Origin: Bacteroidaceae bacterium
GTDB taxonomy: Bacteria > Bacteroidota > Bacteroidia > Bacteroidales > Bacteroidaceae
Assembly (NCBI GenBank): GCA_017448965.1
Contig: JAFSKK010000026.1
Location: 1-46,977, forward strand
Direction of reading: 5' to 3'
Length of the DNA: 46,977 nt
Positions 16,422 to 44,570 of this stretch are shown here, in pieces. Under the pieces are notes generated by a model. The model saw only the letters and a program-made list of their open reading frames with translations. It searched no databases and was not told the origin of the DNA. The position numbers and the translations under genes were made by a program. Position 1 is the stretch's first letter; each line of letters starts with the position of its first letter.

Positions 16422-17291
16422 TTATCCTAAATACGTCTTCAGCAATTTGCTCTTCGACTGCGAGCGCAGACGACGGATGGCCTTCTCCTTAATCTGACGC
16501 ACACGTTCGCGAGTCAGATTGAAGCGTTCGCCAATCTCCTCCAGCGTCTTCTCCGGCTCGCCCAATCCAAAGAACATCTTGATGATTTCCTTCTCGCGCA
16601 CCGTCAGCGTGTCAAGCGCACGCTCAATCTCCTTCTGCAACGACTCCGTCACCAGCATACGGTCTGCTGATGGAGAATCGGGGTTCGACAAGATGTCGAG
16701 CAGACTATTGTCCTCACCCTCCACGAATGGCGCATCCACACTGATGTGACGTCCGCTCACCTTCATCGTGTCAGCCACCTTATCCACTGGCAAGTCCAGC
16801 TGTGCAGCCAACTCTTCAGGCGACGGGCGACGCTCGTTCTCCTGTTCAAACTTCGAGAAAGCCTTGCCAATCTTGTTGAGCGAACCAACCTGGTTCAGCG
16901 GCAGACGCACAATACGGCTCTGCTCAGCCAATGCCTGCAGAATGGACTGGCGAATCCACCACACAGCATAACTGATGAACTTGAAACCACGCGTCTCGTC
17001 AAACTTCTCCGCAGCCTTAATCAGACCCAGATTACCCTCGTTGATAAGGTCGGGCAAACTCAAGCCCTGATTCTGGTACTGCTTGGCCACAGAAACAACG
17101 AAACGAAGGTTCGCTCTGGTCAGTTTCTCCAAGGCCCTTCTGCCTTCGACACCGCCCTTGCGAATCTTCGCAGCCAATTCAACTTCTTCTTCAACAGTGA
17201 TTAACTCCTCACGACCGATTTCCTGCAAGTACTTATCCAACGAAGCACTCTCACGGTTCGTGATTGACTTGGTGATTTTTAATTGCCTCAT
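16422..17291 (-). CDS. rpoD: Primary sigma factor (RpoD/SigA)
   Basis: Housekeeping sigma subunit. The 289-residue protein lacks region 1.1, as in Bacteroidetes primary sigma factors. Region 1.2 is at about 15-45 ([15 protein letters not shown]), region 2 near 85-150 ([35 protein letters not shown]), region 3 near 160-215, and region 4.2 near 255-280 ([19 protein letters not shown]). It presumably reads the TAnnTTTG promoters found across the window. Its own promoter is at 17314-17345; the leader is only about 16 bases. Its stop overlaps an 18-base element. Confidence 0.96.
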
Positions 17292-17868: not shown

Positions 17869-17895
17869 AAAAAAGCCCCCGTTAAGGACGAGGGC
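17869..17895 (-). terminator. Terminator of the tracrRNA
   Basis: On the minus strand GCCCTCGTC and the near-complement AACGGGGGC form a stem at 17875-17895, followed by six T (17869-17874). It ends the tracrRNA; the GC-rich stem has one mismatch. Confidence 0.8.
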
Positions 17896-17953
17896 AGAAA
17901 CCTGAATGTTTTCACAACGGAATAATCCTTATTGTGATTTGCTTCAAATTAGT
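17869..17953 (-). ncRNA. tracrRNA for the type II-C CRISPR system
   Basis: About 85 bases on the minus strand. The first 23 (17931-17953, ACTAATTTGAAGCAAATCAC onward) are the complement of repeat positions 1-24, with one bulged U in the crRNA and one G-U pair. Next comes AAGGATTATTCCGTTGTG, which fits the short nexus and the region after it in Bacteroidetes type II tracrRNAs, then a terminator hairpin. A promoter sits directly upstream (17958-17989), so transcription should start at or one or two bases before the anti-repeat. It is divergent from cas9. It pairs with crRNA so that RNase III and Cas9 can mature and use the guide. Confidence 0.88.
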
Positions 17954-17957
17954 GAGG

Positions 17958-17989
17958 CAAATTTATGATGTTTTTGAATTTTGTGCAAA
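17958..17989 (-). promoter_or_regulatory. Promoter of the tracrRNA
   Basis: On the minus strand: TTTG (17986-17989), 20 bases, TAAATTTG (17958-17965), a complete match to the Bacteroidetes consensus. The predicted start (17951-17953) falls at the first base of the anti-repeat. Confidence 0.8.
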
Positions 17990-18064: not shown

Positions 18065-21000
18065 ATGAAAAAGATATTAGGCCTAGATTTAGGCACAACC
18101 AGCATTGGCTGGGCGGTTGTGAACGCCAACGAAGAAACCCGAGAAAACGGAACCAAATACCTAAAACCAACTGGTATCAGTGCAGCTGGTAGTAGAATCA
18201 TTCCCATGTCACAAGACATTTTAGGGAAATTCGATGCGGGTAACTCTATATCCCAAACAGCAGAAAGAACGAGACTCCGCATGATGCGGCGGCTTCGTGA
18301 GCGTAGCTTATTGCGTCGAGAACGCCTGTTGCGAACATTGAAAACAATGGGATTCCTTCCTGAACATTTTGCACAACAGATCAATCTGTATGGTAAATTT
18401 ATAGATGACAGTGAACCCAAATTGGCTTGGAAAAAGAACGAGGATGGCTCTTCCGAGTTTCTTTTTCAGGATTCTTTCAAAGAGATGCTGGCAGATTTTG
18501 CGATGAATCAGCCACAACTGGTGAGTAACGATAAGAAAGTTCCTTATGATTGGACTATCTATTTCCTTAGGAAGAAGGCTCTGACAGAAAGAGTCACAAA
18601 AGAAGAACTTGCATGGATAATGTTGCAATTCAACCAGAAACGTGGATATTATCAATTACGAGGTGAAGAAGAGGATGAGAAAGAGAATGAGTCCATTGAG
18701 ATAATTAGTGCTAAAATCCTATCAGTTGAAAAGAAGGAAAAAGATAAAAAATATGAGAAGTATTGGTATGAGATGAATCTCGACAATGGTATGACATATC
18801 GTGCATCCTTTTATAATGATGTTTCTCATTGGCAGGGAAGCACGAGAGACTTTGTCCTGAAAACGACAATACTGAAAGATGGAAGTGCTAAAAACGAACT
18901 TTCATTTTTGCCAACCACAGACGAGATTGACAGGATGGATGCTCAGCGAAAAGCAAAGATGTATGCCAAGATAAAGTTGCGTACAGAGAAAGATATAGAA
19001 AACAGTAACACAACGGTAGGCAGTTTCATTTATGATAAACTCTTACAAAAACCCGATCAGAAGATTATTGGCAAACTGGTGCGTACCATTGAGAGGAAGT
19101 TCTATAAAGATGAACTCATTCTGATTCTTAACACACAACAAGAATATATTCCCGAATTAAGAGATACTGAACTATATCAAAGATGCATAGAAGAGTTATA
19201 CCCTAGCAACGAAGCGCATCGAAACAACATTGCTAAACCAGACTTCGTGACCCTTTTTGTTAACGACATTCTGTTTTACCAACGCCCCCTCAAAAGCAAA
19301 AAGTCACTCATTGACAATTGCCCATACGAATATCATTCTGACAAAGATGGAAATACATACCCAATTAAATGTATCGCAAAATCAAATCCCCTTTTCCAAG
19401 AATTCAGGCTTTGGCAGTTTGTTCAGAACTTACGCATATATCAGCGTGAACGAATTGTTAATAATGGGCAACTTGATTTATTCAGCAATGCACCCAAAGG
19501 CAAATTGCAAACCGATGTTGATGTAACAACAGAACTGCTTAAAAACGAAGATGATTATGTAAAACTTTTCGAGTGGCTTAATGATAGAAATTCCATTAAG
19601 CAGGACACACTACTCAATTCCTATTTCAAGATAAAAAAGGAAAAAGGAAAGGACAAATACCCTTTCCGATGGAATTATGTAGAAGACAAAGAGTATCCAT
19701 GCAATGAAACAAGAGCAGCATTGCTGTCAGGATTAGGAAAATGCAATATCAGCACCGATTTTCTCACTCATGAAAAAGAGATGGCTTTATGGCACATCCT
19801 CTACTCTGTTGAAGACAAAACTGAAATCGGCAAAGCGCTAAAGACCTTCGCCAGCAAAAACAGTCTTGAAGACAGTGTTGCATCAATCTTCAGCAAGTTA
19901 AAACCATTCAAGAAGGAGTATGGTTCCTATTCAGAGAAAGCTATTAAGAAACTTCTCCCATTGATGCGAATGGGTAACTATTGGAAAGCAGAAGCCATTG
20001 ATAATAAAACACTGGACAGGATTGAGAAAATCATCACAGGCGAATATGATGACAGCATCAAAACTCGTGTTCGAGAAAAGGCCATCAATCTCACAGATGT
20101 CAGCCATTTTCGAGGACTCCCCGTATGGCTCGCTTGTTATATTGTATATGATAGACATTCAGAATCTAAAGAAATAGAAAAATGGGAGAGTCCTGCTGAC
20201 ATTGATCACTATCTAAGAGGATTCAAACAGCATTCACTCCGTAATCCGATTGTCGAGCAAATCATTACGGAAACCTTACGAACTGTCCGAGATATATGGA
20301 AACAAGAAGGAAGAATTGACGAAATACACGTCGAGCTCGGGCGTGAAATGAAACTGCCTGCGGATAAACGTAAAAAACAGACAGAACGGATTCTTCAAAA
20401 CGAAAACACAAATCTTCGGATTAAAGCCATGCTTCTTGAATTCATGAATTCAGATGTGGAAAATGTACGCCCATTCTCTCCAAGTCAACAGGAAATACTG
20501 CGTATTTACGAAGAGAATGCATTGGACAATCTTACAAAAGAAGATTCTGAATATGAATTTGTAACAAGAATGTCCAAAACGGCTCAACCTACAAAATCTG
20601 ACATTATCCGTTACAAATGTTGGTTAGAACAGAAATATCGTTCTCCCTATACAGGGGAGATGATACCTCTTTCCAAACTTTTCACACCTGCATACGAGAT
20701 TGAGCACATCATCCCTCAATCACGCTATTTCGATGATTCTTTCAGTAACAAGGTGATATGCGAATCCGAAGTCAACAAATTGAAAGACCGTCAACTGGGT
20801 TATGAGTTCATCAAGAATTGTGCAGGACAAATCGTACAGCTCAGCCAGGGAGGAACGGTTAAAATTCAATCTATTGATGCTTATGAGAAATTTGTAAAAG
20901 ACCACTACACCACCAACGGTATCAAAATGAAGAAACTCCTAATGGAGGATATACCTGATGACTTCATCGAGCGACAGATGAATGATAGTCGCTATATTAG

Positions 21001-22753
21001 CAAGTTTATCAAGGGAGTACTTTCCAACATTGTTCGGGAAAAAATGGAAAATGGAGAGTATGAGCAAGAAACTGTATCAAAGAATCTTATTTCTTGCAAT
21101 GGTTCTATTACAACCTACTTGAAAAGAGACTGGGGAATGGAAAATGTTTGGAACAGCATCATACTTCCACGTTTCTTGCGCCTTAATCAATTGACAGGAA
21201 GAGATTGTTTCACTCGGCTTAACAATGAAGGGCACATAATTCCTGTAGTTCCTTTTGAGTTACAAAAGGGCTACAATAAAAAACGCATTGACCACCGTCA
21301 TCATGCGATGGATGCAATTGTTATTGCATGTGCAACAAGAGACCATGTAAATCTTCTGAACAATGAAGCGGCCCATTCTAAGCACAACGCAAACCGCTAT
21401 CAACTACAACGGAAGTTGCGCCGTTTTGAGAAAATTGTAATCAATGGAAAAGAAAGGAAAATTGCCCAAGAATTCCTAAAACCGTGGGAAACCTTCACAA
21501 CGGATGCAAAAAAGACTCTCGAAAATATCATCGTTAGCTTCAAACAAAACCTCCGAGTCATCAATAAGACCACAAACTCCTATCAGCATTTTGACGAAGA
21601 TGGCAAAAAAGAATTTACCAAACAAGAAAAAGGCTGCAGTTGGGCCATTCGTAAATCAATGCACAAGGACACTGTCTTTGGCGAGGTCAACTTACGTATG
21701 CCAAGGTTCATCAATGGAGAAATTGTTGAGGGAAGAAAGAAAACAGTTTCATTGCAAGAAGCCATCAATAACCCAGATGCAATTATTAACAAAGATTTCA
21801 AGAAGAAAGTCAAAGAACTTCTTGAGAACGGACATGATGTAAAGTACATCAAGAAATACGTGGAAGAAAACAAGGACATTTGGTCTGACATTGATTCCAA
21901 AAAGATAGAAGTGTATTATTTCTCCAAAGACGAAAAGAAGAGAAACGGAGAACCCAAAGAACGTTATTTTGCAACACGTAAGCCATTGGACACTTCTTTC
22001 GACCAGAAAAGAATAAAGGAAAGTATTACAGATACTGGAATTCAAAAGATTCTGCTGGCACATTTGGAATCAAAAGGTAACAACCCTGATCAAGCCTTCT
22101 CACCTGATGGCATTGAAGAAATGAATCGAAACATTATTGCCTTAAATAACGGCAAGTTCCATCAACCAATACAAAAGGTTCGTGTCTACGAGAAAGCAGA
22201 CAAATTTGCTGTAGGAAAGACGGGAAATAAGGGAAAGAAGTTTGTAGAAGCCAAAGATGGAACAAATTTGTTTTTCATGGTATATGAAAACAATGAAAAA
22301 GAACGTGTATTCGCAACTATTCCACTTAGTCTATCTATTGAGTGTCAAAAAGAAAGTCCACGCAGTTGGATATCATTACTTGACAAAAGACTCAGAAACA
22401 AAACCCCAATGGAAGAACTTCAGAAATATCAGAAACTAGAAATACCTGAAGATTCCAAACTCTTATTCATCATATCGCCTAATGATTTGATATATGTACC
22501 GTCAAATGAAGAACTAAAGAATGGGATAAAGCAAATTGATTACAACAGAATATACAAAGCTGTCAGTTTTAACAAGAAACAATGTTTTTGTATTTTGAGT
22601 AATGTGGCGACCCCCATTGTAAACAAGGTCGAATTCTCCTCGTCGAATAAAATGGAAAAAGCTATTACAGGTGAAATGATCAAGGAAATCTCTATCCCGA
22701 TCAAAGTTGATAGACTCGGCAACGTTATTGAGCTAAATGGAATGAAAATATAG
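18065..22753 (+). CDS. cas9: Cas9, type II-C effector nuclease (large form)
   Basis: RNA-guided DNA nuclease. The 1562-residue protein shows RuvC-I ILGLDLGTTSIGW (Asp 8), an Arg-rich bridge helix near 65-95 (RLRMMRRLRERSLLRRERLL), RuvC-II IHVELGRE (Glu 757), the HNH motif EIEHIIPQS (His 881, later Asn 904) and RuvC-III DHRHHAMDA (His 1080, Asp 1083). All catalytic residues are intact. The C-terminal part after about 1090 is unusually long, about 470 residues; many type II-C Cas9 proteins are far shorter, near 1000-1450 in total. The reading frame is more A/T-rich than flanking genes. cas1 follows by 5 bases; no csn2 or cas4 is present, hence II-C. Confidence 0.97.
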   Translation: MKKILGLDLGTTSIGWAVVNANEETRENGTKYLKPTGISAAGSRIIPMSQDILGKFDAGNSISQTAERTRLRMMRRLRERSLLRRERLLRTLKTMGFLPEHFAQQINLYGKFIDDSEPKLAWKKNEDGSSEFLFQDSFKEMLADFAMNQPQLVSNDKKVPYDWTIYFLRKKALTERVTKEELAWIMLQFNQKRGYYQLRGEEEDEKENESIEIISAKILSVEKKEKDKKYEKYWYEMNLDNGMTYRASFYNDVSHWQGSTRDFVLKTTILKDGSAKNELSFLPTTDEIDRMDAQRKAKMYAKIKLRTEKDIENSNTTVGSFIYDKLLQKPDQKIIGKLVRTIERKFYKDELILILNTQQEYIPELRDTELYQRCIEELYPSNEAHRNNIAKPDFVTLFVNDILFYQRPLKSKKSLIDNCPYEYHSDKDGNTYPIKCIAKSNPLFQEFRLWQFVQNLRIYQRERIVNNGQLDLFSNAPKGKLQTDVDVTTELLKNEDDYVKLFEWLNDRNSIKQDTLLNSYFKIKKEKGKDKYPFRWNYVEDKEYPCNETRAALLSGLGKCNISTDFLTHEKEMALWHILYSVEDKTEIGKALKTFASKNSLEDSVASIFSKLKPFKKEYGSYSEKAIKKLLPLMRMGNYWKAEAIDNKTLDRIEKIITGEYDDSIKTRVREKAINLTDVSHFRGLPVWLACYIVYDRHSESKEIEKWESPADIDHYLRGFKQHSLRNPIVEQIITETLRTVRDIWKQEGRIDEIHVELGREMKLPADKRKKQTERILQNENTNLRIKAMLLEFMNSDVENVRPFSPSQQEILRIYEENALDNLTKEDSEYEFVTRMSKTAQPTKSDIIRYKCWLEQKYRSPYTGEMIPLSKLFTPAYEIEHIIPQSRYFDDSFSNKVICESEVNKLKDRQLGYEFIKNCAGQIVQLSQGGTVKIQSIDAYEKFVKDHYTTNGIKMKKLLMEDIPDDFIERQMNDSRYISKFIKGVLSNIVREKMENGEYEQETVSKNLISCNGSITTYLKRDWGMENVWNSIILPRFLRLNQLTGRDCFTRLNNEGHIIPVVPFELQKGYNKKRIDHRHHAMDAIVIACATRDHVNLLNNEAAHSKHNANRYQLQRKLRRFEKIVINGKERKIAQEFLKPWETFTTDAKKTLENIIVSFKQNLRVINKTTNSYQHFDEDGKKEFTKQEKGCSWAIRKSMHKDTVFGEVNLRMPRFINGEIVEGRKKTVSLQEAINNPDAIINKDFKKKVKELLENGHDVKYIKKYVEENKDIWSDIDSKKIEVYYFSKDEKKRNGEPKERYFATRKPLDTSFDQKRIKESITDTGIQKILLAHLESKGNNPDQAFSPDGIEEMNRNIIALNNGKFHQPIQKVRVYEKADKFAVGKTGNKGKKFVEAKDGTNLFFMVYENNEKERVFATIPLSLSIECQKESPRSWISLLDKRLRNKTPMEELQKYQKLEIPEDSKLLFIISPNDLIYVPSNEELKNGIKQIDYNRIYKAVSFNKKQCFCILSNVATPIVNKVEFSSSNKMEKAITGEMIKEISIPIKVDRLGNVIELNGMKI

Positions 22754-22758
22754 ACATT

Positions 22759-23682
22759 ATGATTAAGAAGACCCTCTATTTCGGCAACCCCATCTACCTC
22801 AGCCTCCGCAATGCCCAACTGGTGTTGCGGAAGCCTGATGCGGACAAATTAGAAGAGTCATTCAAACAGGATGCCGAAAAGACTATCCCGATTGAGGACA
22901 TCGGCGTGGTGGTGCTCGACAACAGACGCATCACCATCACAACAGGAGCAATGGAAGCATTGCTTAGCAATAACTGCGCTATCATCACATGCGACAGCAC
23001 AAGCTTGCCCGTTGGTCTGATGCTACCGCTCTGCGGAAACACCACACAAACTGAACGTTTCCGCAACCAAATAGATGCATCGCTGCCACTAAAAAAACAG
23101 CTTTGGCAACAAACCATCCGCCAAAAAATTCTGAACCAGGCAATGGTGCTGAGCAGGAATACAGGGGCGGTTGTCAAGAATATGCAAGTATGGGCTAACG
23201 AGGTGAAAAGCGGTGACACAGACAATCTCGAAGCTCGTGCTGCCACCTACTATTGGCGTAACATCTTCCCCACTCTTCCAAATTTCGTTCGCGGTCGTGA
23301 AGGTGAGCCTCCCAATAATCTGCTCAACTATGGCTATGCCATTCTGCGGGCTTGTGTGGCTCGTGGATTGGTGGGTAGCGGTTTGTTACCCACCTTGGGC
23401 ATCCATCACCACAACCGCTACAATGCCTATTGTCTGGCTGATGACATCATGGAACCTTATCGACCCTTTGTGGATGATTTGGTCATCAATATCATGCAGC
23501 ACTATCCCGACTATAGTGAACTGACACTGAGCATCAAAGCAGAACTTCTCACCATCCCGTCACTTGATGTGATGCTGGATGGCAAGCGGAGTCCGCTGAT
23601 GGTTGCCGTTGGACAAACAACAGCCAGCCTCGCCAAATGCTTCAACGGAGAACTGCGTAAAATTGCTTACCCCGAATTATAA
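22759..23682 (+). CDS. cas1: Cas1, spacer-integration nuclease
   Basis: Integrase of the Cas1-Cas2 adaptation complex. The 307-residue protein has the type II Cas1 layout; likely metal-binding residues are Glu 158 (NLEARAATYYW), His 217 (LGIHHHNRYN) and Glu 232 (DDIMEPYRPF). It starts 5 bases after cas9 and 9 bases precede cas2. Its codon use looks closer to the chromosomal average than that of cas9. Confidence 0.96.
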   Translation: MIKKTLYFGNPIYLSLRNAQLVLRKPDADKLEESFKQDAEKTIPIEDIGVVVLDNRRITITTGAMEALLSNNCAIITCDSTSLPVGLMLPLCGNTTQTERFRNQIDASLPLKKQLWQQTIRQKILNQAMVLSRNTGAVVKNMQVWANEVKSGDTDNLEARAATYYWRNIFPTLPNFVRGREGEPPNNLLNYGYAILRACVARGLVGSGLLPTLGIHHHNRYNAYCLADDIMEPYRPFVDDLVINIMQHYPDYSELTLSIKAELLTIPSLDVMLDGKRSPLMVAVGQTTASLAKCFNGELRKIAYPEL

Positions 23683-23691
23683 TAAAAGAAC

Positions 23692-24033
23692 ATGAGCTGT
23701 TTGTCACGCCTCACAGAATACAGAGTTATGTGGATTTTAGTATTCTTCGACTTGCCCACAGAAACCAAGAAGGACAAAAAGCGTTATACGGATTTTCGGA
23801 AGAAACTTCAGTGTGACGGATTTACCATGTTCCAATTCTCCATCTACATCCGACACTGCGCCAGCAGCGAAAATGCAGAGGTACATTTAAAAAGAGTTAA
23901 ATCTTTTCTTCCCGAATTCGGAAAGGTCGGATTGCTAACCATAACTGACAAACAGTTCGGGAATATGCAACTTTTCTATGGACAGAAGCCAACGGAGCCC
24001 AAAGCACCTAGCGTTCAGTTGGAATTATTCTGA
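23692..24033 (+). CDS. cas2: Cas2, adaptation-complex subunit
   Basis: The 113-residue protein begins MSCLSRLTEYRVMWILVFFD; the MWILVFFDLPTETKKD block is the first strand with the conserved Asp (residue 20). Then FRKKLQCDGFTMFQFSIYIRHC and the terminal QLELF follow, typical of type II Cas2. A later ATG at residue 13 is possible, but the longer N-terminus is common in relatives. It is the last gene of the cas operon, closed by the terminator at 24040. Confidence 0.95.
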   Translation: MSCLSRLTEYRVMWILVFFDLPTETKKDKKRYTDFRKKLQCDGFTMFQFSIYIRHCASSENAEVHLKRVKSFLPEFGKVGLLTITDKQFGNMQLFYGQKPTEPKAPSVQLELF

Positions 24034-24039
24034 AAATGA

Positions 24040-24067
24040 AAAATCCAGCCGTCAAGCTGGATTTTTT
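24040..24067 (+). terminator. Terminator of the cas operon (bidirectional)
   Basis: AAAATCCAGC (24040-24049) and GCTGGATTTT (24056-24065) pair perfectly with a 6-base loop and T-runs at both ends. It can stop cas transcripts from the left and crRNA transcripts arriving from the right. The 76 bases between it and the array hold no gene. Confidence 0.85.
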
Positions 24068-24143
24068 ATGTCATACCCCTTTCTTTTTTCTTTTCTATTT
24101 TTCATCATAACCACCTAACAATCTTCCACTTATAAAGATTCAG

Positions 24144-24957
24144 GGTGTATATGACTCTGCAAAGATACTAATTTGAAAGCAAATCACAACACCAACGAGT
24201 ACATGGCTGTCCACAATTAGGTGTATATGACTCTGCAAAGATACTAATTTGAAAGCAAATCACAACCGCAAACGACTACGCCATCACGGCATCGTTGGTG
24301 TATATGACTCTGCAAAGATACTAATTTGAAAGCAAATCACAACTTGGTTCTCGCTTTTCTTTTTGTTGTATCGGTGTATATGACTCTGCAAAGATACTAA
24401 TTTGAAAGCAAATCACAACCCCTTAACTCGCTGTCTTTTTTTGTTTGACGGTGTATATGACTCTGCAAAGATACTAATTTGAAAGCAAATCACAACCCTT
24501 TGTTAAGTAGTTTTAATGATGTTTGAGGTGTATATGACTCTGCAAAGATACTAATTTGAAAGCAAATCACAACGTTCAGATGTGATGTTTGTGAATTGGT
24601 AAGGGTGTATATGACTCTGCAAAGATACTAATTTGAAAGCAAATCACAACACAAAGCGTGTTTTATTGCTAAATCATTGAGGTGTATATGACTCTGCAAA
24701 GATACTAATTTGAAAGCAAATCACAACGCGGTGTGTGGCTTGTTTCATTTTATTTAGGTGTATATGACTCTGCAAAGATACTAATTTGAAAGCAAATCAC
24801 AACACCCGTGCCTCTGGTCACGGTCACACGATAGGTGTATATGACTCTGCAAAGATACTAATTTGAAAGCAAATCACAACCCTCGACGAGTCGCATATCC
24901 AGCGTGTACGGGTGTATATGACTCTGCAAAGATACTAATTTGAAAGCAAATCACAAC
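24144..24957 (-). CRISPR. CRISPR array: 11 identical 47-base repeats, 10 spacers
   Basis: Plus-strand repeats begin GGTGTATATGACTC and end AAAGCAAATCACAAC; starts are 24144, 24220, 24297, 24373, 24450, 24527, 24604, 24681, 24757, 24834 and 24911. All copies look identical. Spacers are 29 or 30 bases. The tracrRNA anti-repeat is complementary to the minus-strand form (GTTGTGATTTGC...), so crRNAs are read from the minus strand, opposite to cas9. Each repeat in that direction holds TTG, 19 bases, TATCTTTG, a complete promoter match. I did not recognise any spacer as matching other DNA in this window. Confidence 0.98.
24927..24956 (-). promoter_or_regulatory. Predicted promoter inside each CRISPR repeat (example: right-most repeat)
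   Basis: In the crRNA direction, repeat bases 2-4 are TTG and bases 24-31 are TATCTTTG, 19 bases apart; here these map to 24954-24956 and 24927-24934. Transcription would begin about repeat base 36-39, roughly 8-11 bases before the spacer. The same sites exist in all 11 repeats and in the orphan repeat at 26220-26266. Confidence 0.6.
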
Positions 24958-24976
24958 GTATTTCAAATAAAAGTCG

Positions 24977-24984
24977 TACCTTTG
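24977..24984 (+). promoter_or_regulatory. -7 box of a possible plus-strand promoter
   Basis: TACCTTTG fits TAnnTTTG and is preceded by TCAAATAAA, as in the promoter repeats at 321 and 39314, but no TTTG box lies 19-21 bases upstream. It may drive the small frame ending at 25214, which is closed by a terminator. Confidence 0.4.
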
Positions 24985-25040
24985 TAATGTAATCCAAGAG
25001 AGGATTGCACAGGGAAATCCGAAAACCTTGAAAAGAGTAG

Positions 25041-25214
25041 GAAGCCAGTCGTGGCGGTGCCAGGGAAGGCGCTGGCAGGAAACGCAAGGGAGTCCATTAC
25101 TATGGATTCCGTGCCCGTCAGGAGGTGCACGAAATCCTCTCCGCTCTGGGTGACGGCTCCAAAGCCGACTTCATCAACGAATGCATCCTGAAGGCATGCG
25201 ACAAGCAGCCATGA
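25041..25214 (+). pseudogene. GGAREGAGRK-motif small protein, apparently frameshifted at its start
   Basis: The plus frame after a TAG at 25038 encodes 57 residues with SRGGAREGAGRKRKG at the start and ILSALGDGSKADFINECILK in the second half. GGxRxGAGRK is common near the N-terminus of small phage, plasmid and transposon proteins. No ATG, GTG or TTG occurs in frame after the TAG, while a TTG at 25028 opens another frame (KRVGSQS). A one-base slip near 25045 would join the two, so either a frameshift mutation or an unusual start is implied. It ends 3 bases before a terminator and sits where an array leader might be expected. Confidence 0.5.
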
Positions 25215-25217
25215 AAG

Positions 25218-25255
25218 AAGGAGGGTGTGACATCGCAAGGTCACACCCTCCTTTT
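25218..25255 (+). terminator. Rho-independent terminator after the GGAREGAGRK frame
   Basis: AAGGAGGGTGTGAC (25218-25231) pairs perfectly with GTCACACCCTCCTT (25240-25253), loop 8, then TT. A 14-bp perfect stem right after a stop codon supports a real plus-strand transcript here. Confidence 0.85.
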
Positions 25256-25321
25256 CATTATGAAAGACAGCGAATTTGACGCTGCCATGGGTGCGCCGCC
25301 AGCCCGAGCGGCGGCTTCTGT

Positions 25322-25603
25322 TCAAATAGCGGCAGCAATACTTGCCGGGGCCTGGATTCCATCAGCCGCACGTCTGATGCGGTCAGAAAGGTCATAAAGT
25401 GCTCCACGTAACTGAGAGGCTTCCTCTTCGTTAAAGCCGCCCTTTCCTCCATTGCCATCAATACCATCCATCTTGTGATAGAACCACGATGCCGACTTCG
25501 AAAAATAATTGTTGGCGACTTCTCTCCATGATACGGCAAAAAGAATGTCGTTCAGCTGTTGTTTCATGTCAGAAATGACATTTTGTTTCATTGTTACTTC
25601 CAT
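25322..25603 (-). CDS. DUF5053 family protein
   Basis: The 93-residue product (89 from the second ATG at 25591) matches my memory of DUF5053: SWREVANNYFSKSASWFYHKMDG near 25-47, FNEEEASQLRGALYDLSDRI near 57-76. The pattern of a helix, an NYFxKSxSW block and a second helix suggests a small DNA-binding or structural domain; no function is established. DUF5053 genes are found in Bacteroidales phages and mobile elements. It lies 49 bases downstream of the 54-residue gene and likely shares its promoter. A GC-rich 6-bp hairpin (25295-25315) follows the stop. Confidence 0.7.
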   Translation of the reverse strand: MEVTMKQNVISDMKQQLNDILFAVSWREVANNYFSKSASWFYHKMDGIDGNGGKGGFNEEEASQLRGALYDLSDRIRRAADGIQAPASIAAAI

Positions 25604-25652
25604 ATTCTTATTGTTTTTGTATGGTCTCCCCCTTTCGAGGGAGGCCGACTTG

Positions 25653-25817
25653 TTAACCTCTGTAAGCGTCCATCATGATGTCGAAAAGCTTTTCAGCGTA
25701 CCACCTTAATTCGGGGTCTCCATTGGGAAAACTTCTAACGTAGTTCCTAATCGCTGCGAGGAGTTCCTCTTCTTCCTCCGTGACCTTGATGGTCAGCATC
25801 TTTTGTTTCTTTTCCAT
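25653..25817 (-). CDS. 54-residue putative ribbon-helix-helix protein
   Basis: A short complete frame with ATG at 25817 and TAA at 25653-25655. After MEKKQ comes a strand-like KMLTIKV, then helix TEEEEELLAAIRNYV, a turn at SFPNGDP and helix ELRWYAEKLFDIMMDAY: the strand-helix-helix order and length of a ribbon-helix-helix regulator. It has a full-consensus promoter and two identical palindromes around it, so autorepression is likely. It heads a two-gene unit with DUF5053. The fold is inferred from pattern only. Confidence 0.65.
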   Translation of the reverse strand: MEKKQKMLTIKVTEEEEELLAAIRNYVRSFPNGDPELRWYAEKLFDIMMDAYRG

Positions 25818-25845
25818 ATTGTATTGCTTTTTCTTTTGAACAGTA

Positions 25846-25877
25846 CAAAGTTACTACATTTTTTTGTAGTAACCAAA
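25846..25877 (-). promoter_or_regulatory. Promoter of the 54-residue gene and DUF5053
   Basis: On the minus strand: TTTG (25874-25877), 20 bases, TAACTTTG (25846-25853), a complete consensus. Predicted start near 25840, about 23 bases before the ATG at 25817. Confidence 0.75.
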
Positions 25878-25901
25878 TAAATACTACATTTTTTTGTAGT
25901 A
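25851..25901. promoter_or_regulatory. Two identical palindromic operators 30 bases apart
   Basis: TTACTACA, six T, TGTAGTAA at 25851-25872 and TACTACA, six T, TGTAGTA at 25882-25901. Centre-to-centre distance is 30 bases, about three helical turns. The first overlaps the -7 box; the second is just upstream of the -33 box. This is the layout expected for repression by a dimeric small regulator. Confidence 0.65.
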
Positions 25902-25971
25902 AAAGCAAAAATTTAACACTCCGAGCATGAAAATACATGAAAAACCGCTTGAATAGCACAGAAAGAGTGCA

Positions 25972-26219
25972 TCAGCAATGATGGAAACTTTTTGTTTTAG
26001 CGAGGAAAAGAGCCATCTGGATGTTGGCACCAGCACGCTGCAGCTTTGCGATGAAAGCATTAGCAGTTCTGCAAGTGGTGCAGATGTCATCGATGACAAT
26101 CACACGTTTTCCGTTGAAGAACCCTTCATCGAGCAAAACGTTGTCATCGATGTCTGCATCACGATGCAGATGCAGTTTTGTGCGTTTGCCAACAACCTGA
26201 ATGTGCTCGAAGCCATTCA
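25972..26219 (-). pseudogene. Truncated phosphoribosyltransferase remnant
   Basis: The minus frame encodes VIVIDDICTTCRTANAF, the PRPP-binding loop of type I phosphoribosyltransferases (normally DDxxTTGxT), then IAKLQRAGANIQMALFLAKTK. Only the C-terminal third of a typical enzyme is left, and Cys replaces the Gly of the loop. The frame continues in without a stop from the orphan CRISPR repeat at 26220-26266, so the break lies exactly at the repeat edge. Most likely non-functional as an enzyme. Confidence 0.65.
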
Positions 26220-26266
26220 GGTGTATATGACTCTGCAAAGATACTAATTTGAAAACAAAACACAAC
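26220..26266 (-). repeat. Orphan CRISPR repeat with two changes
   Basis: The full 47 bases are present about 1.26 kb beyond the array. Compared with the array repeats it differs only at crRNA-direction positions 7 (A to T) and 12 (C to T). Both are in the part that pairs with tracrRNA; the TTG (26263-26265) and TATCTTTG (26236-26243) promoter boxes are unchanged. No second repeat is next to it. Confidence 0.95.
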
Positions 26267-26407
26267 CTTTATTCAAAGTGTGTTTTTTATGGAATGATGA
26301 TCTCTTTGACAAAAAATCATGGAATTAGTCAATTTTTATTGTAAACAATGTGATTTCACAGAAATTATACGTAAGTTTGCAAGACAAACCATCCGATTGA
26401 TTGAAAT

Positions 26408-26551
26408 ATGGTCATACGAAAGGAAATAAGAAACAGTACGGCTGAGTTTGTCGGAAATTCCGACGAGCTGCCACGATGGCAGAACTTTTTTGAATCGGGC
26501 GAGCTGAAGGAGTATTCAGTTGTTTCCAAAATGGAAACAGGTCATGTATAG
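26408..26551 (+). pseudogene. RhuM-family fragment with internal loss
   Basis: A 47-residue frame from ATG 26408 to TAG 26549-26551. It starts IRKEIRNSTAEF, like the N-terminus of virulence-RhuM-type proteins, and later reads NFFESGELKEYSVVSKMETG, similar to their segment that follows the DNA-binding-like WLTQ region. The WLTQ region is missing and the frame ends where the next domain should start. It looks like a deletion remnant; RhuM proteins are often in mobile or defence-related regions. Identification is by memory of the family. Confidence 0.45.
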
Positions 26552-26777
26552 TCTTGTAATCGTACTTATGTAGAATTGAAATAAGGCTTTCGAGACAAAG
26601 AAACGAAGTCGGACGGCGCAAATTCAATTGTCCCGGATATTCCTTGGATATTCCTACCATTGCCGAACGATATTGCTACGATATTCGACCAATGTTTTCA
26701 ACACCGTGAATCACGTCGAAGAGACAACTATTTCCAAAATGGAAACAGTTCATCAGGAAGAAGTTTTTGTTGTTTTG

Positions 26778-28570: not shown

Positions 28571-30010
28571 TCAGCGACGTTCCAGGAGGACGACATTTTC
28601 CACATGCTGTGTGTGGGGGAACATGTCGACGGGTTGCACTTTCACTACTTTGTAATCGCTATCGAGCAACTGGAGGTCGCGTGCCTGTGTGGCTGGGTTG
28701 CAGCTGACATAGACGATGCGTTGCGGAGCAGCGAAGAGGATGGTGTCGATGACATCCTGATGCATGCCTGCACGTGGAGGGTCGGTGATGATGACATCGG
28801 GACGGCCATGCTCCTCGATGAAGTCGCGATTGAGGATGTCCTTCATGTCGCCTGCGAAGAAGAGGGTGTTGGTGATGCCGTTGATGTCGGAGTTCACTTT
28901 GGCATCCTCGATGGCTTCGGGCACATATTCGATGCCGATGACCTGACGGGCTTGCTTGGCAACGAAGTTGGCGATGGTGCCTGTGCCCGTATAGAGGTCA
29001 TAAACGAGGGGCTTCTCCGATGCGGTTTCGTCCTTATCTCCAAAGGCGAAATCACGGGCCACTTTGTAGAGTTCGTAGGCTTGTTCCGTGTTGGTCTGAT
29101 AGAAGGATTTTGGCCCCACTTTGAAGCGGAGTTCTTCCATCTGCTCGTAGATGTGATCCTTGCCTTTCACAACGTGAATTTCTTGGTCGCCAAACGTATC
29201 GTTAGCTTTATGATTATCAACGTAAAGGAGCGATGTTATTTGAGGAAAGGTTTCACTGAGATGCTGCATCAATCGGTCGGCTTGTTCCCGCTCTTCAGGA
29301 GTGTCGATTCTGAACTGCACAAGGAACATGAGTTCACCTGTGTTGGAGGTTCGAATCATGAGTGAACGAAGGAGTCCACGGTTCTGTCGCAAGTCGTAAA
29401 ATTCCAATCCGTTTTCCAACGCATATTGACGAATGTCGTTGCGGATTTGGTTGTTGATGTCGTCCATCAGATGACACTCTGTGATGTCGAGAATCTTGTC
29501 GAATGCACCTGTGATGTGAAATCCCACAGAGTCCATCACATCATACTTCACATCTTGCTTCACTTCATCGTCGGTGAGCCATCGTTTGTTGGAGAAACCA
29601 AACTCCAGTTTGTTGCGGTAGCCGTATATCTTCTTGCTGCCAAGAATGGGCTGGAACTCTGGCAACTCCACCTTGCCGATGCGAGCGAGGTTGTCGTACA
29701 CCTGCTGCTGCTTGGCCTTGAGTTGCTCCTCATACTGGAGGCATTGCCACTTGCAACCGCCACACACACCATAATGGCGGCAACGAGGCTCGGTGCGCAG
29801 AGGCGACTTCTCATGGAAATGAATGGCTACAGCCTCCATGTAGGAGTTCTTCTTCTTTTTCACCTGTAAGTCAACCACATCGCCAGGTACGACGAAGGGC
29901 ACAAAAACCACTTTGTCGTCCACACGAGCCAATGCTTTGCCTTCGGCAGCACAGGCTGTGATGGTCACTTGCTCCAGCACAGGAAGTTGTTTCTTTTTGT
30001 TTCGAGCCAT
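28571..30010 (-). CDS. rlmD: 23S rRNA (uracil-5-)-methyltransferase RlmD type
   Basis: Methylates a uracil of 23S rRNA at C5. The 479-residue protein has an N-terminal TRAM domain (about 8-65), a Cys cluster CRHYGVCGGCKWQC near 80-93 for the iron-sulfur cluster, a Rossmann fold with YDLYTGTGTIANFVA near 335 and the catalytic VSCNPATQARDL near 442-453. Length and order fit RlmD (RumA) better than the shorter TrmA. It is divergent from the oxidoreductase gene. Confidence 0.92.
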   Translation of the reverse strand: MARNKKKQLPVLEQVTITACAAEGKALARVDDKVVFVPFVVPGDVVDLQVKKKKNSYMEAVAIHFHEKSPLRTEPRCRHYGVCGGCKWQCLQYEEQLKAKQQQVYDNLARIGKVELPEFQPILGSKKIYGYRNKLEFGFSNKRWLTDDEVKQDVKYDVMDSVGFHITGAFDKILDITECHLMDDINNQIRNDIRQYALENGLEFYDLRQNRGLLRSLMIRTSNTGELMFLVQFRIDTPEEREQADRLMQHLSETFPQITSLLYVDNHKANDTFGDQEIHVVKGKDHIYEQMEELRFKVGPKSFYQTNTEQAYELYKVARDFAFGDKDETASEKPLVYDLYTGTGTIANFVAKQARQVIGIEYVPEAIEDAKVNSDINGITNTLFFAGDMKDILNRDFIEEHGRPDVIITDPPRAGMHQDVIDTILFAAPQRIVYVSCNPATQARDLQLLDSDYKVVKVQPVDMFPHTQHVENVVLLERR

Positions 30011-39990: not shown

Positions 39991-42192
39991 ATGAGAAACT
40001 ATTTTTTTATATTATGTGCATTCGTACTGCTGCCCATAACCGCTATCGGTCAGACACAGCAGGGTTATGTGAAAACTTTAGGACGCCCCAATAAGGATGG
40101 TGTGCCTTTGAAAGGCGTGACCGTCCTCGTGAAAGGTGAGCACAATACTGTGCTGAGCAAGGCAGACGGTACTTTCTCCATGCTGATGACAGGCAAGAAG
40201 AATGGAGATGCCTACTCTCTGCAACAAGTACAGAAGTCAGGGTATGAACTGAACGAGAAGGGAGTGATTGGCAGAAAGTATACCTTTTCAGACAAGGTTC
40301 CATTGACCATCGTGATGGTGTCCACCTCCCAACTCCAGGCTGACAAACAGCGCATCGAGAACACAGCCTACGAAGTGGCACAACGGAACTACAAGGCAAA
40401 GATGGCTGAACTGGAGCGGCAACTCAGCAAGAATACCATTACGGCAGAGACTTACCGTTCAGAACTGGCAGACCTGCGAGAGAAGTTCGAACGCTACCAA
40501 CTGCTCATCGACGGATTGGCAGAACACTATGCCCACACCGACTACGACATGCTGACCGACACAGAGCGTGAAATCAACCTCTGCATCGAGTCAGGCGACC
40601 TCGACCGTGCCGACTCCCTCATCCACACCCTCTTCGACCCCACCGACGTTCTCCAGCGCAACCACGATGCCCTCGCCAAACTCGACCAACAAATCGACCA
40701 AGCAAACGACATCATCCGTCAGGCCAACACCGACATGGCCGCCGTGCTGAAACAACAGGAAAAGGATGCAGAGTATTTGTATCAGTTATACACCATCGCC
40801 CTTGCAAAGTACGACAATGAAAAAGCGAGATCTTATATTGAAACAAGAGCAAAATTAGATACGACGAATGTGGATTGGCAGAATGATGCAGGAATGTTTA
40901 TATACGAATACATGGCTCTATATGATGATGCTTTAACATATTTCGAGCGAGCATTATACTATTCCGAGAAACAAAACACGCCTAATAAGATATCAGACTG
41001 TTATTACAACATGGGACTCTGTTTTTGTGCCTTAGGACTATACGACCAATCTATTGAATATCAAACAAAAGCACTAATCAACAGAGATTCTAATGATGAT
41101 GGCAATCAGAAAGATATTGCAGCTATTTATGATCAAATAGGATTGACATACACAAGACAAGATATGTATACACAAGCTTTAAGCAACCATCTGAAGGCAG
41201 TACATATCTTAGATGATTACAACGATAGCACATGTTATGAGGAATATGCTACCATTTATAACAATATCGGAATTGTGTACAACCATCTTGATTCTTTAGA
41301 CAAGTCCTTATATTATTATAATAAAGCTCTGGAAAATTGTAATAAATTCTATAAACAAGAATACACCATTCATCAAGCCATAACAGACTGCAATATAGGA
41401 GTTGTGCTATACAAAAAGGGAGAAATGTTAGCAGCGTTAGGCCATTTTGAAAAAGCTTTAGAATGCTTTCAAAAAACATACGTAACAAACCACCCTGCAA
41501 TTGCGACAACTTTAAATCAAATCAGCGCATTTTACGCTGAAATGGATGACTGGAATAAGGCTTTGGATTATTTGGAAAGGGCGTTGCAAATTAATACCAA
41601 CGTATATGGAGAACAACATCCAAATACAGCAAAGAATCTCAGCAACATAGGTGCCATCTGTATTCAAATGGATAAGCCGTATGAGGCAATCCGAAATTTT
41701 GAAAAAGCATTAGAGATTAATAAGCGTTTCTATGGCGAAACACATTCAGACATTGCATCAATATACACATATTTAGGAGATGTTTTTTACCGTTTAGGAA
41801 ACCATGGTTTTTCTTCATCTCTTGAATATTACAATCAAGCTTTGGCCATTTATCAACAACTTTATGGAGAGACGCATTTGGATATTGCCAACATCAATAA
41901 AAAAATTGGGTGTATATATTACGAGAAAAAGAATTACACAAAGGCTTTAGAAATCCTACATCAGGCTGTTGAAATCTATGAGAAATTGCATGTACCAGAA
42001 AATTTGGATTTTGCCGATTCCTACAATTCCGTCGGGAGTGTTTATTATAGCCAAGGAAACTACACGAAAGCATTCGACTACTTTTCTAAGTCTTTAGCAA
42101 TTTTAGAGAAAGTGTTAGGTGAAGACCATCCTAACACAAAAATAGTTAAAGAGAATATAGAGTCTCTGAAACAGAAAATGAACGGCCAATAA
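39991..42192 (+). CDS. Secreted TPR protein, tandem family member 1
   Basis: The 733-residue protein has a signal peptide (YFFILCAFVLLPITAIG). Residues 23-105 form a carboxypeptidase-regulatory-like (transthyretin-type) domain starting QQGYVKTLGRP; 105-270 are a long coiled-coil segment (ADLREKFERYQLLIDGLAEHY near 157-177); from about 290 on are about ten TPR units such as YNNIGIVYNHLDSLDKSLYYYNKAL. It ends HPNTKIVKENIESLKQKMNGQ, like member 3. The first 290 codons are nearly identical to members 2-4, while the rest is visibly more A/T-rich and distinct, suggesting exchange of the C-terminal half. Function unknown; TPRs bind protein partners. Confidence 0.85.
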   Translation: MRNYFFILCAFVLLPITAIGQTQQGYVKTLGRPNKDGVPLKGVTVLVKGEHNTVLSKADGTFSMLMTGKKNGDAYSLQQVQKSGYELNEKGVIGRKYTFSDKVPLTIVMVSTSQLQADKQRIENTAYEVAQRNYKAKMAELERQLSKNTITAETYRSELADLREKFERYQLLIDGLAEHYAHTDYDMLTDTEREINLCIESGDLDRADSLIHTLFDPTDVLQRNHDALAKLDQQIDQANDIIRQANTDMAAVLKQQEKDAEYLYQLYTIALAKYDNEKARSYIETRAKLDTTNVDWQNDAGMFIYEYMALYDDALTYFERALYYSEKQNTPNKISDCYYNMGLCFCALGLYDQSIEYQTKALINRDSNDDGNQKDIAAIYDQIGLTYTRQDMYTQALSNHLKAVHILDDYNDSTCYEEYATIYNNIGIVYNHLDSLDKSLYYYNKALENCNKFYKQEYTIHQAITDCNIGVVLYKKGEMLAALGHFEKALECFQKTYVTNHPAIATTLNQISAFYAEMDDWNKALDYLERALQINTNVYGEQHPNTAKNLSNIGAICIQMDKPYEAIRNFEKALEINKRFYGETHSDIASIYTYLGDVFYRLGNHGFSSSLEYYNQALAIYQQLYGETHLDIANINKKIGCIYYEKKNYTKALEILHQAVEIYEKLHVPENLDFADSYNSVGSVYYSQGNYTKAFDYFSKSLAILEKVLGEDHPNTKIVKENIESLKQKMNGQ

Positions 42193-42244
42193 CTCTTCGC
42201 GGTGTATCTCTAATTTGTGATGCCTTGTCAAAAATATCCATCCT

Positions 42245-42349
42245 TTTTTGTAGGCTTGGAGGAATTTGTGTACCTTTGCCCCAAAATCGAATACCGATTT
42301 CTCCAAGAAACTCAAAAAAACCACTAAACCTAAATCATACCATCAAACA
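42245..42349 (+). repeat. Duplicated upstream cassette, copy 1
   Basis: About 105 bases before TPR gene 2, from TTTTTTGTAGGCTTGGAGG to the start codon, recur almost unchanged before TPR gene 4 (46349-46455). Shared parts include TCGAATACCGATTTCTCCAA and AAATCATACCATCAA. Confidence 0.85.
42247..42278 (+). promoter_or_regulatory. Promoter of TPR genes 2 and 3
   Basis: TTTG (42247-42250), 20 bases, TACCTTTG (42271-42278). The leader is about 65 bases. Gene 3 starts 19 bases after gene 2 and has no promoter of its own. Confidence 0.75.
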
Positions 42350-44551
42350 ATGAAAAAAGCATATCTCCTCTTTATTGCACTATTTGCCGCCATCTCTATG
42401 TCAGCCCAGATGCAGCAGGGTTATGTGAAAACTTTAGGACGCCCCAATAAGGATGGTGTGCCTTTGAAAGGCGTGACCGTCCTTGTGAAAGGTGAACACA
42501 ATACTGTGCTGAGCAAGGCTGACGGTACTTTCTCCATGCTGATGACAGGCAAGAAAAATGGAGATGCCTACTCACTTCAACAGGTACAAAAGTCTGGGTA
42601 TGAACTGAACGAGAAAGGCGTGATTGGCAGAAAGTATGCCTTCTCAGACAAGGTGCCGCTGACCCTCGTAATGGTGTCCACCTCCCAACTTCAGGCAGAC
42701 AAACAGCGCATTGAGAACAAAGCCTACGAGGTGGCACAACGGAACTATCAGAAAAAGATGGCAGAACTGGAGAGACAACTCGGCCAAAACACCATCACGG
42801 CAGAGACCTACCGCTCAGAAGCGGCTGACCTGCGAGAGAAGTTCGAGCGCTACCAACTGCTCATCGACGGATTGGCGGAACACTATGCCCACACCGACTA
42901 CGACCTGCTGACCGACACAGAGCGTGAAATCAATCTCTGCATCGAAGCTGGTGACCTCGACCGTGCCGATTCTCTCATCCACACTCTCTTCGACCCCACC
43001 GACGTTCTCCAGCGCAACCACGATGCCCTCGCCCGTCTCGACCAACAAATCGACCAAGCCAACGACATCATTCGTCAAGCCAACACCGACATGGCCGCCG
43101 TGCTGAAACAACAGGAAAAAGATGCAGAGTATTTGTATCAACTATATACCATTGCCCTTGCTAAGTACGATAATGAAAAAGCGAGATATTATATTGAAAC
43201 AAGGGCTGCATTGGACACAACAAGTGTGGATTGGCAGATTGATGCAGGACTTTTTATCGAGAACTATTTCGCAGATTATTCCAAGGCGCTCAACTATTAC
43301 CGATGCGCCTTAACCAACACTTTAAGAAATCCCAAGTATTATTATTTGCAAGGAGTCGCCTTGAACAATATTGGGGACCTATTACTAACACAAGCAAAAT
43401 ATCAAGAGGCTTTAACGAATTTTGAAAAAGCAAGAGATTTTGACAAAGATCTATTGGGAGAAGAAAATGTGCTTTTAGTAAAAGTCTACAACAATATTGG
43501 AGTTGTTTACGATGGAATGGAAAACTACATTATGGCATGGGATAATTACAATAAAGCACTTAAAATTGAAAACACACATCATCCAGATGGAAGTAAAGAA
43601 ATGGCTCTTCTCTATAGCAATATTGGAGGATTGTATCGTTCATTGGGCGAAAAAGATAAAGCTATCGTTTGTTACAAAAAAGCGTTGGAGTTATATCGGC
43701 GCTTCACTGGTGAACAATCCGCCGAAGTGGCTAGTGTTTATGGAAACTTAGCCGATTGTAGAACGAACAATGAGGAGGCTCTTCAATATGTGGAGAAAGC
43801 CCTTGACTTTTATCTCAAACTATATGGAGACGATCACCCGAATGTGGCTTGGTGTTATGGAATCATGGGCAGTATCTACTTTTTTCTTAATCAACCACAA
43901 AAAGGAGAAGAGTACATTATTCGAGCATTGTTTATTTATAAAAATTTTTTGGGAGATTTTCATCCCAAAGTTGCTGGTATGTACCGAGTCTTATCAGCGA
44001 GACATTTTGAAAGGGGGAATTTAGACATGGCCACCGAATATAATCAGAAGGCTTTGGATATTTATATGCAAACCTATGGTGAAGGTCATTCTACCGTTGC
44101 TTCTTGCTACATTCAAAACGGGGAGATTCTCATCAGTAAAGATAAGATTCAAGAGGCATCTACTTATATTGATAAAGCAATTAACGGGATGGAAAAGAAA
44201 TACCCAGAAGGACACCCTGATTTATATACATACTATCTATCACAAGGATGTTATCGTTTAGGGTTACAGACCAAAGATTCAACGCATTTAAAAAAAGACA
44301 GAGCATTGGATGGACAAATGAATGATTATGGCACAGAAGAAAGTTTTGATAAAGCCCTTGTTATAGCTGAGAAATTCTATCGCGAAGATTCCGAAAGAAT
44401 GCAAAATATAATTCAGTATCTGGTAAACATCTATTTCATAAGAATCGCTATAGGGGGAACTGCCTATCAAGATAAACTAAAAGCCTTGGCCACTAAATAT
44501 CCGAAATACGTCAAAACAGCATGGGATACACTTCAACAGCAGATTCCATAA
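42350..44551 (+). CDS. Secreted TPR protein, tandem family member 2
   Basis: The ATG at 42350 gives a signal peptide (LLFIALFAAISMSAQ); an ATG 84 bases upstream, inside the promoter cassette, is rejected. The 733-residue product has the same N-terminal regulatory-like domain and coiled coil (about 20-290) as member 1. The C-terminal half is again A/T-rich TPR, but different: YSNIGGLYRSLGEKDKAIVCYKKAL and YGIMGSIYFFLNQPQKGEEYI. The last part, near 620-733, has no TPR consensus. It shares a transcript with member 3. Confidence 0.85.
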   Translation: MKKAYLLFIALFAAISMSAQMQQGYVKTLGRPNKDGVPLKGVTVLVKGEHNTVLSKADGTFSMLMTGKKNGDAYSLQQVQKSGYELNEKGVIGRKYAFSDKVPLTLVMVSTSQLQADKQRIENKAYEVAQRNYQKKMAELERQLGQNTITAETYRSEAADLREKFERYQLLIDGLAEHYAHTDYDLLTDTEREINLCIEAGDLDRADSLIHTLFDPTDVLQRNHDALARLDQQIDQANDIIRQANTDMAAVLKQQEKDAEYLYQLYTIALAKYDNEKARYYIETRAALDTTSVDWQIDAGLFIENYFADYSKALNYYRCALTNTLRNPKYYYLQGVALNNIGDLLLTQAKYQEALTNFEKARDFDKDLLGEENVLLVKVYNNIGVVYDGMENYIMAWDNYNKALKIENTHHPDGSKEMALLYSNIGGLYRSLGEKDKAIVCYKKALELYRRFTGEQSAEVASVYGNLADCRTNNEEALQYVEKALDFYLKLYGDDHPNVAWCYGIMGSIYFFLNQPQKGEEYIIRALFIYKNFLGDFHPKVAGMYRVLSARHFERGNLDMATEYNQKALDIYMQTYGEGHSTVASCYIQNGEILISKDKIQEASTYIDKAINGMEKKYPEGHPDLYTYYLSQGCYRLGLQTKDSTHLKKDRALDGQMNDYGTEESFDKALVIAEKFYREDSERMQNIIQYLVNIYFIRIAIGGTAYQDKLKALATKYPKYVKTAWDTLQQQIP

Positions 44552-44570
44552 AGAGATAACACAAGAAAAA

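Follow-up and report, generated by a model that had tools for sequence, protein, structure and literature searches.

Each repeat of a type II-C CRISPR array in a Bacteroidaceae genome probably constitutes, judging from its sequence, a complete promoter for the Bacteroidetes primary sigma factor, with TTG at repeat positions 2-4 as the -33 box and TATCTTTG at positions 24-31 as the -7 box. The array lies at 24144-24957 of the window, the whole 46,977-nt stretch of contig JAFSKK010000026.1 that was analysed, and comprises 11 identical 47-nt repeats and 10 spacers of 29-30 nt, the minus strand being the crRNA strand. Read on that strand, each repeat is GTTGTGATTTGCTTTCAAATTAGTATCTTTGCAGAGTCATATACACC, in which TTG at positions 2-4 is followed by 19 bases and then by TATCTTTG at positions 24-31. 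The two boxes of the first repeat in the crRNA direction occupy 24954-24956 and 24927-24934, respectively (minus strand), and the other ten repeats have the same sequence. The initial annotation, which had read TTG-N19-TATCTTTG in every repeat, was exact (11 of 11 repeats), and its claim of a complete Bacteroidetes-type promoter sequence in every repeat is further borne out by enrichment over shuffled sequences and over the repeats of other phyla. Sequence, spacing and strand agree with regions upstream of genes and of tracrRNAs, and the arrangement is spread widely among Bacteroidia.

The surrounding locus has the II-C layout: cas9 (18065-22753, plus strand; TIGR01865, 388 bits), a type II cas1 (22759-23682, plus strand; TIGR03639) and cas2 (23692-24033, plus strand; TIGR01573) are contiguous and are followed by the array, and the gaps hold no further open reading frame of at least 100 amino acids. 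A putative tracrRNA on the minus strand combines the elements of a type II-C tracrRNA, namely an anti-repeat (17932-17953), a promoter of the type present in the repeats, TTG-N20-TAAATTTG (17958-17988), and a terminator-like hairpin followed by T6 (17869-17895). The anti-repeat is predicted to pair with repeat positions 2-24, ending where the -7 box of the repeat begins. The window also encodes a sigma-70 family factor with regions 1.2, 2, 3 and 4 (rpoD-like; 16422-17291, minus strand), which lies behind TTG-N20-TATATTTG. A solitary twelfth repeat is located 1.26 kb upstream of the array in the crRNA direction (26220-26266, minus strand). It carries two changes, at positions 7 and 12 in the tracrRNA-pairing half, and its promoter boxes and 3' half are intact; an insertion or rearrangement of the array may have separated the two (24958-26266). 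Between cas2 and the array, a hairpin with T tracts on both strands (24039-24066), folded on the minus strand (-14.8 kcal/mol, z -4.55) and read by sequence on the plus strand, could form the end for both the cas operon and the array transcripts. Additionally, a match to the Rfam DUF805b RNA (RF02914, 45.3 bits) on the plus strand at 25009-25043 closely adjoins the first repeat.

The strict pattern TTG-N19-TAnnTTTG occurs at 14 sites in the window, compared with a mean of 0.70 and a maximum of 3 in 100 shuffles. These sites are the 11 array repeats, the solitary repeat, one upstream of a GHMP kinase gene (ispE-like) and one at 29191-29220. When candidate promoters were scored with a matrix, sites of at least 11.1 were found upstream of GrpE (352/375), the GHMP kinase gene (8612/8590), the sigma-70 family gene (17344/17321), the tracrRNA (17988/17965) and a TPR gene at 39991 (39923/39946). 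Another such site (42248/42271) is situated at the listed start of the next TPR open reading frame, and since the listed TTG start (42266) falls inside it, the true start is probably later. A further site (46352/46375) lies past the third TPR gene, and the sequence downstream of it runs off the window. The local promoter rule put forward in the initial annotation therefore holds for GrpE, the ispE-like and rpoD-like genes, the tracrRNA and two TPR genes, the third TPR site being located beyond that gene. The sequence in the array repeats has the composition of a Bacteroidetes-type promoter: TTG or TTTG, 19-20 nt, and TAnnTTTG. The three TPR-repeat proteins themselves are encoded in a row (39991-46256), with promoter-like TTG-N20-TAnnTTTG at the start of two.

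Bacteroidetes promoters reportedly consist of TTTG or TTG at -33 and TAnnTTTG at -7. The repeats described here share these boxes and the 19-20 spacing and differ in their position, the known promoters preceding genes. Among 646 upstream regions of Bacteroidia loci with arrays masked, matches to TTG-N-TAnnTTTG peaked at spacings of 19 and 20 (18 and 13 matches), while every other spacing from 12 to 27 gave 1-7. With spacings of 18-21, the pattern was present in 39 of the 646 regions, and in 44 on the opposite strand, against 6.35 in shuffles. A second set, 431 regions located elsewhere than at type II loci, showed the same peak (19 and 14 matches versus 3-10 at other spacings, both strands). 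The scoring matrix was built from a leave-one-letter-out count at spacings 19-20, which replaced an unsupervised two-block motif search that had drifted to T-rich sequence and was dropped.

The breadth of this arrangement was assessed in a survey of type II repeats. Cas9 was found above the family cut-off in 65 of 395 genomes of the phylum and at 1e-60 in 81 of 395 genomes of the class; 120 regions were taken, and 90 of the 121 sequences, including the window, gave a usable array, one each. Repeat-like arrays not of type II-C (in L082, L107 and L108) were excluded, and so were the second arrays of L082, L143 and L168. Repeats were oriented by their GTTG start, with which the anti-repeat alignment disagreed in 15 of 90 cases; these conflicts were judged to reflect alignments that were weak, that fell on a stray repeat copy or that covered most of the repeat. 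Three repeats (L079, L089 and L126) begin alike on both strands, and their orientation was set by hand to match the anti-repeat.

Among the 50 distinct long repeats (44-57 nt) of Bacteroidia, which are related and so are not independent observations, 39 scored higher than dinucleotide shuffles of the same repeat at p<0.05, 24 of them also at p<0.01, while the remaining 11 missed p<0.05. Fixing the first 11 bases in the shuffles left 35 and 20 repeats at these thresholds, and a matrix rebuilt only from regions away from type II loci left 35 and 18. The mean score of the long repeats was 9.77, compared with 5.09 for the shuffles and 4.16 for the other strand. At the level of families, 23 of 27 had at least one repeat at p<0.05, and in 20 of 27 all repeats reached this value. 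The perfect pattern TTG-N18..21-TAnnTTTG was present in 20 of the 50 repeats, where 0.3 was expected (largest value 3 in 500 shuffled sets), and in none of them on the opposite strand. It is also found in the II-C repeats of B. fragilis (PMC9367070, Table 1) and P. intermedia (PMC5608340), as printed in the available parts of these papers; the initial annotation had described the B. fragilis repeat as containing the box, which the table and the pattern check confirm. The window repeat is identical to that of L066 and to the published B. fragilis repeat through position 31, where the box ends, and diverges beyond it. Two long repeats depart from the usual geometry: L137, with 57-nt repeats and 30-nt spacers, has a box-like TAAATTTA at 36-43, and L132 has a perfect TATCTTTG at 17-24, too near the repeat start for the usual -33 box.

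The letters of the box stay alike where the sequence after it diverges. The box is at 22-27 in 45 of the 50 repeats, and among these the box letters are 80% alike even in the 760 pairs that share no more than 40% of the 8 nt following it. These figures bear on the suggestion that A+T-rich repeats often yield TAnnTTTG by chance and that shared descent has multiplied one such accident. The repeats are indeed related; nevertheless, shuffles of the very same sequences do not approach the 20 perfect patterns observed, and the box letters remain about 80% alike where the tails fall to about 30% identity, which makes an accident of this kind extremely improbable.

Outside the long repeats of Bacteroidia the pattern is much less frequent. 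Repeats of 36-37 nt in this class reached p<0.05 in 5 of 15 cases and missed it in 10, a set that retains L122 (G469:C28), probably a betaproteobacterial contaminant. The Cas9 of L122 matches that of the betaproteobacterial Candidatus Desulfobacillus denitrificans at 99%, and its repeat ends in TACAAT plus one base. In other classes of the phylum, none of 5 long repeats and 4 of 14 short ones reached p<0.05. An outgroup was assembled by searching with an aligned set of four diverse Cas9 proteins, giving 80 loci, mostly from Betaproteobacteria with some from Firmicutes, Campylobacterota and others; arrays in 56 of the 80 provided 41 distinct repeats. One outgroup locus, L185, is labelled Bacteroidia, yet it matches a betaproteobacterial genome at 99%. 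A single outgroup repeat of 41 reached p<0.05 and none p<0.01, many of them being G+C-rich, a composition for which the shuffles allow. The survey proposed in the initial annotation accordingly yields enrichment both over shuffles (39 of 50) and over the type II repeats of other phyla (1 of 41). Its surmise that the feature could be general in the phylum holds in part: the pattern is widespread in Bacteroidia and is not phylum-wide, as the short repeats and the long repeats of other classes indicate.

The outgroup repeats carry another element instead. A sigma70-like TAnnAT lies no more than 2 bases from the 3' end in 33 of the 39 clearly oriented repeats, in the place and form of a putative sigma70 -10 box. 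The same 3'-terminal TAnnAT, at the place of the Neisseria-type -10 box, is present in 0 of the 50 long Bacteroidia repeats. As a control of another CRISPR type, Csd1, the signature of type I-C, was too rare (1 of 198 genomes), and Cas6 (25 of 247 genomes) was used; for its 30 matches, 20 Bacteroidia regions were taken, which gave 10 arrays in 9 regions with repeats of 29-40 nt. None of the 20 strands of these Cas6-adjoining repeats reached p<0.05 (lowest 0.13), a weak control in that 9 of the 10 repeats are just 29-33 nt, barely exceeding the pattern length, and the 40-nt, three-copy array is doubtful. The I-B and III-B repeats of B. fragilis are likewise without the pattern.

The relation between the box and the tracrRNA was followed across the long-repeat loci. 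An anti-repeat was placed away from the array in 38 of 50 loci, the other 12 having none above the cut-off, and pairing with it ends at repeat position 24 (median of the 38 loci). A promoter of the same type, with a score of at least 9, is present upstream of the anti-repeat in 30 of 38 loci; among 1196 randomly chosen intergenic stretches, 6.7% have one. The -7 box of this promoter ends 2-6 nt ahead of the anti-repeat in 26 of the 30 loci, and the tracrRNA is thus expected to begin approximately at the anti-repeat and not to extend to the box of the repeat. Conservation of the box for tracrRNA pairing was considered and rejected, as the box lies outside the pairing segment. The TTG taken alone is weak evidence for a promoter, because the GTTG start is also constrained by tracrRNA pairing and is common in other phyla.

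The oldest repeat offers a different view of the same constraints. The first repeat in the crRNA direction is the oldest, and its 5' half serves no crRNA; in Riemerella, which has 47-bp repeats, new spacers enter at the cas2 side according to the accessible text of PMC6008519. A partial first repeat was found in 22 of the 50 long-repeat arrays, of which 20 were usable, L098 (N letters) and L150 (copy inside the array) being left out; in 12 other arrays a contig end is too close for this to be judged. In 19 of the 20 usable copies the altered stretch stops at positions 5-23, short of the box; the alteration varies from a few bases to complete replacement, and the remainder is intact apart from at most one change. 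This count is to be read with the detection limit of at least 9 matching bases at the 3' end, which copies eroded through the box would escape. The exception, L094, has changes that cross the box; it is the twentieth usable copy and stands outside the 19 scored for TTG. At the other end of the array no run longer than 10 nt was found, except in L150, where the array is split.

All 19 scored copies have lost their own TTG at positions 2-4. A TTG at spacings of 17-22 is present in 6 of the 19, with about 2.9 expected, which gives weak support to the proposal that a -33 box is retained or regained in the oldest repeat. In the available passages of Feussner 2025 (PMC12080349), extra II-C repeats are described as mutated mostly in the first 15 nt, and it is suggested that they need to keep their promoter; the present data agree with those passages for the -7 half, the TTG at 2-4 being the part that is lost. 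Weak expression of the first spacer, a lesser role of the -33 box, or retention of the intact half for reasons that go beyond promoter function would each account for this. In the changed part of the first repeats of L101 and L184, a short hairpin (CCCGCC-AGA-GGCGGG in L101) directly precedes the retained -7 half, a feature that recalls the upstream terminators reported in Feussner 2025.

These observations can be weighed against the idea that TATCTTTG is kept for another DNA or RNA function, such as recognition by Cas1-Cas2 or 5' trimming of crRNA, with a coincidental promoter likeness and with transcription coming from outside the array. Adaptation and pairing do constrain repeat sequence, and 13 of the 19 partial oldest repeats keep the box with no TTG near -33. 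Against this, the box and its spacing match what precedes ordinary genes and the tracrRNA within these loci, other phyla have a different, sigma70-like box in its stead, and the box falls outside the segment that pairs with tracrRNA. The oldest repeat, which is expected to be outside cas2-side adaptation, still keeps the box as well. A function of this other kind is therefore regarded as unlikely, and a promoter in each repeat as the better reading.

If every repeat is a promoter, RNA polymerase would start in the 3' tail of each one and proceed through the following spacer into the 5' half of the next repeat, where the tracrRNA would pair and the 3' end would be made. Each spacer would have its own promoter, the array would be transcribed towards cas2, and, the repeats being 47 nt long, the transcript would carry some 8-12 nt of repeat ahead of the spacer. 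The proposal in the initial annotation that crRNA would require no 5' processing is conjectural. The 5' half of the repeat would serve both as the -33 box and in tracrRNA pairing, with the -7 box just outside the pairing segment. Promoter activity, the start site and processing are what we infer from these sequences, and so is the independent expression of spacers with no need for a leader promoter.

The boxes might also be functional promoters that just top up the crRNA pool, most of it coming from a transcript begun upstream of the array. Promoters 76-77 bp apart should, by inference, interfere with one another, and the partial oldest repeats are often without the -33 TTG, both of which would suit such a scheme. 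Against it, the sole crRNA-strand site of this promoter type scoring at least 11.1 between the array and the solitary repeat (25876/25853) is about 900 bases away, although weaker or other promoters may be present there. Sigma70-type sites in 23600-26600 were no more frequent than chance, numbering 5 compared with 6.5 in shuffles, and one of the 5 overlaps both a repeat and its spacer. An upstream transcript as the main source appears quite improbable, somewhat more so than another function of the box, and transcription from each repeat remains the favoured reading.

Promoters inside the repeats have reportedly been described for the type II-C arrays of Neisseria and Campylobacter. In Neisseria, the -10 box is located at the 3' end of the 36-nt repeat. 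The arrays studied here would resemble those systems in having one promoter per repeat, transcription towards the newest spacer and short pre-crRNAs. Unlike them, they have TAnnTTTG mostly at positions 23-31 and TTG at 2-4 of a repeat that is usually 46-47 nt long, so that the start would fall in the repeat tail.

Parts of this arrangement have been proposed before. The TTG of the F. columnare repeat was suggested to be the -33 element of a repeat-encoded promoter (Hoikkala 2021, PMC8092290), a study in which eight RNA reads were directed towards the leader, and the -33 proposal was repeated for F. psychrophilum in a 2023 paper (PMC10309648). In the available passages of these two papers the TTG alone is named for the repeats, and TAnnTTTG is mentioned in connection with the cas9 promoter. 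Most of the 36-nt Flavobacterium-like repeats surveyed here lack the complete pattern. The passages at hand of Feussner 2025 (PMC12080349) state that every repeat of a type II-C array is provided with a promoter of its own, and those of a B. fragilis study (PMC5704556) that CRISPRleader could not assign a specific leader to the II-C system. A published analysis of Riemerella repeats reports no potential promoters in its accessible part, where the BDGP predictor is named (PMC5006608), and promoters were not strongly predicted for P. intermedia anti-repeats in the corresponding part of PMC5608340, which names the BDGP predictor or its web address. A repeat-internal Bacteroidetes promoter offers an explanation for these promoter-less predictions in Riemerella repeats and P. 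intermedia anti-repeats. To our knowledge, the BDGP predictor was not made for Bacteroidetes promoters.

No description of a TAnnTTTG box in a CRISPR repeat was met in the searches of the open literature, a body of text to which most subscription papers and preprints do not belong. The statement in the initial annotation that no published description was known consequently stands for the -7 box, and gives way for the -33 TTG (Hoikkala 2021 and the 2023 paper) and for the promoter in each repeat (Feussner 2025), as far as the accessible portions of these sources go. The principle is known from other bacteria, and the Bacteroidia version was earlier described only in part; what is new is the form found in Bacteroidia, which has both boxes, together with its wide occurrence, its contrast to TAnnAT-ending repeats and the promoter type shared with the tracrRNA.

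The distribution of repeat forms was compared with a Cas9 tree, read by leaf order and not by supports. Most long-repeat arrays fall together, apart from the outgroup and from most 36-nt arrays ending in [TG]AnnTT, among which L079, L097 and L124 are nonetheless placed. Conversely, five 36-nt repeats located among the long ones (L075, L088, L133, L143 and L179; p 0.009-0.041) have no tail and keep TTG-N18/19 with a box one letter off. The sequences suggest that the repeat tail may be dispensable and the TTG-to-box spacing not. A further geometry, TTG at 9-11 placed 19 nt before an edge half-box [TG]AnnTT, is shared by 7 of the 15 short Bacteroidia repeats and 9 of the 19 from other classes, together 16 of 34 distinct repeats, with L068, L074, L077, L078, L085 and L091 as examples among the 36-nt repeats; it is fixed by the shared repeat length and so is not independent evidence. 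Selection of spacers that supply the missing TG of the half-box was looked for and discarded: among 601 spacers, 6.3% have TG at positions 1-2, and its mean frequency at positions 5-24 is 6.7%.

A tentative generalisation, which we consider possible and somewhat doubtful, is that repeat-internal promoters are general to II-C systems and that the box follows the primary sigma factor of the host. It would take the form TAnnAT at the repeat edge in sigma70-type phyla and TAnnTTTG inside a lengthened repeat in Bacteroidia, and a third form, TTG(9-11)-N19-[TG]AnnTT at the repeat edge, with its last two letters supplied by the spacer, may be present in many of the 36-nt repeats of Bacteroidota. If the third form is true, a spacer would tune its own expression. 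Crossing a phylum border would then need a change of the repeat promoter, and this would constitute a barrier to the horizontal transfer of II-C systems.

A promoter within each repeat would place a single short sequence under three simultaneous demands, those of tracrRNA pairing, adaptation and transcription. It would also yield a rule, open to testing, that predicts where crRNAs start in Bacteroides, Prevotella and their relatives. Should the box indeed follow the host sigma factor, it would be possible to predict which transferred II-C arrays stay silent until their repeats change, and the same dependence predicts the array design that would be needed for such systems to work in Bacteroidia.
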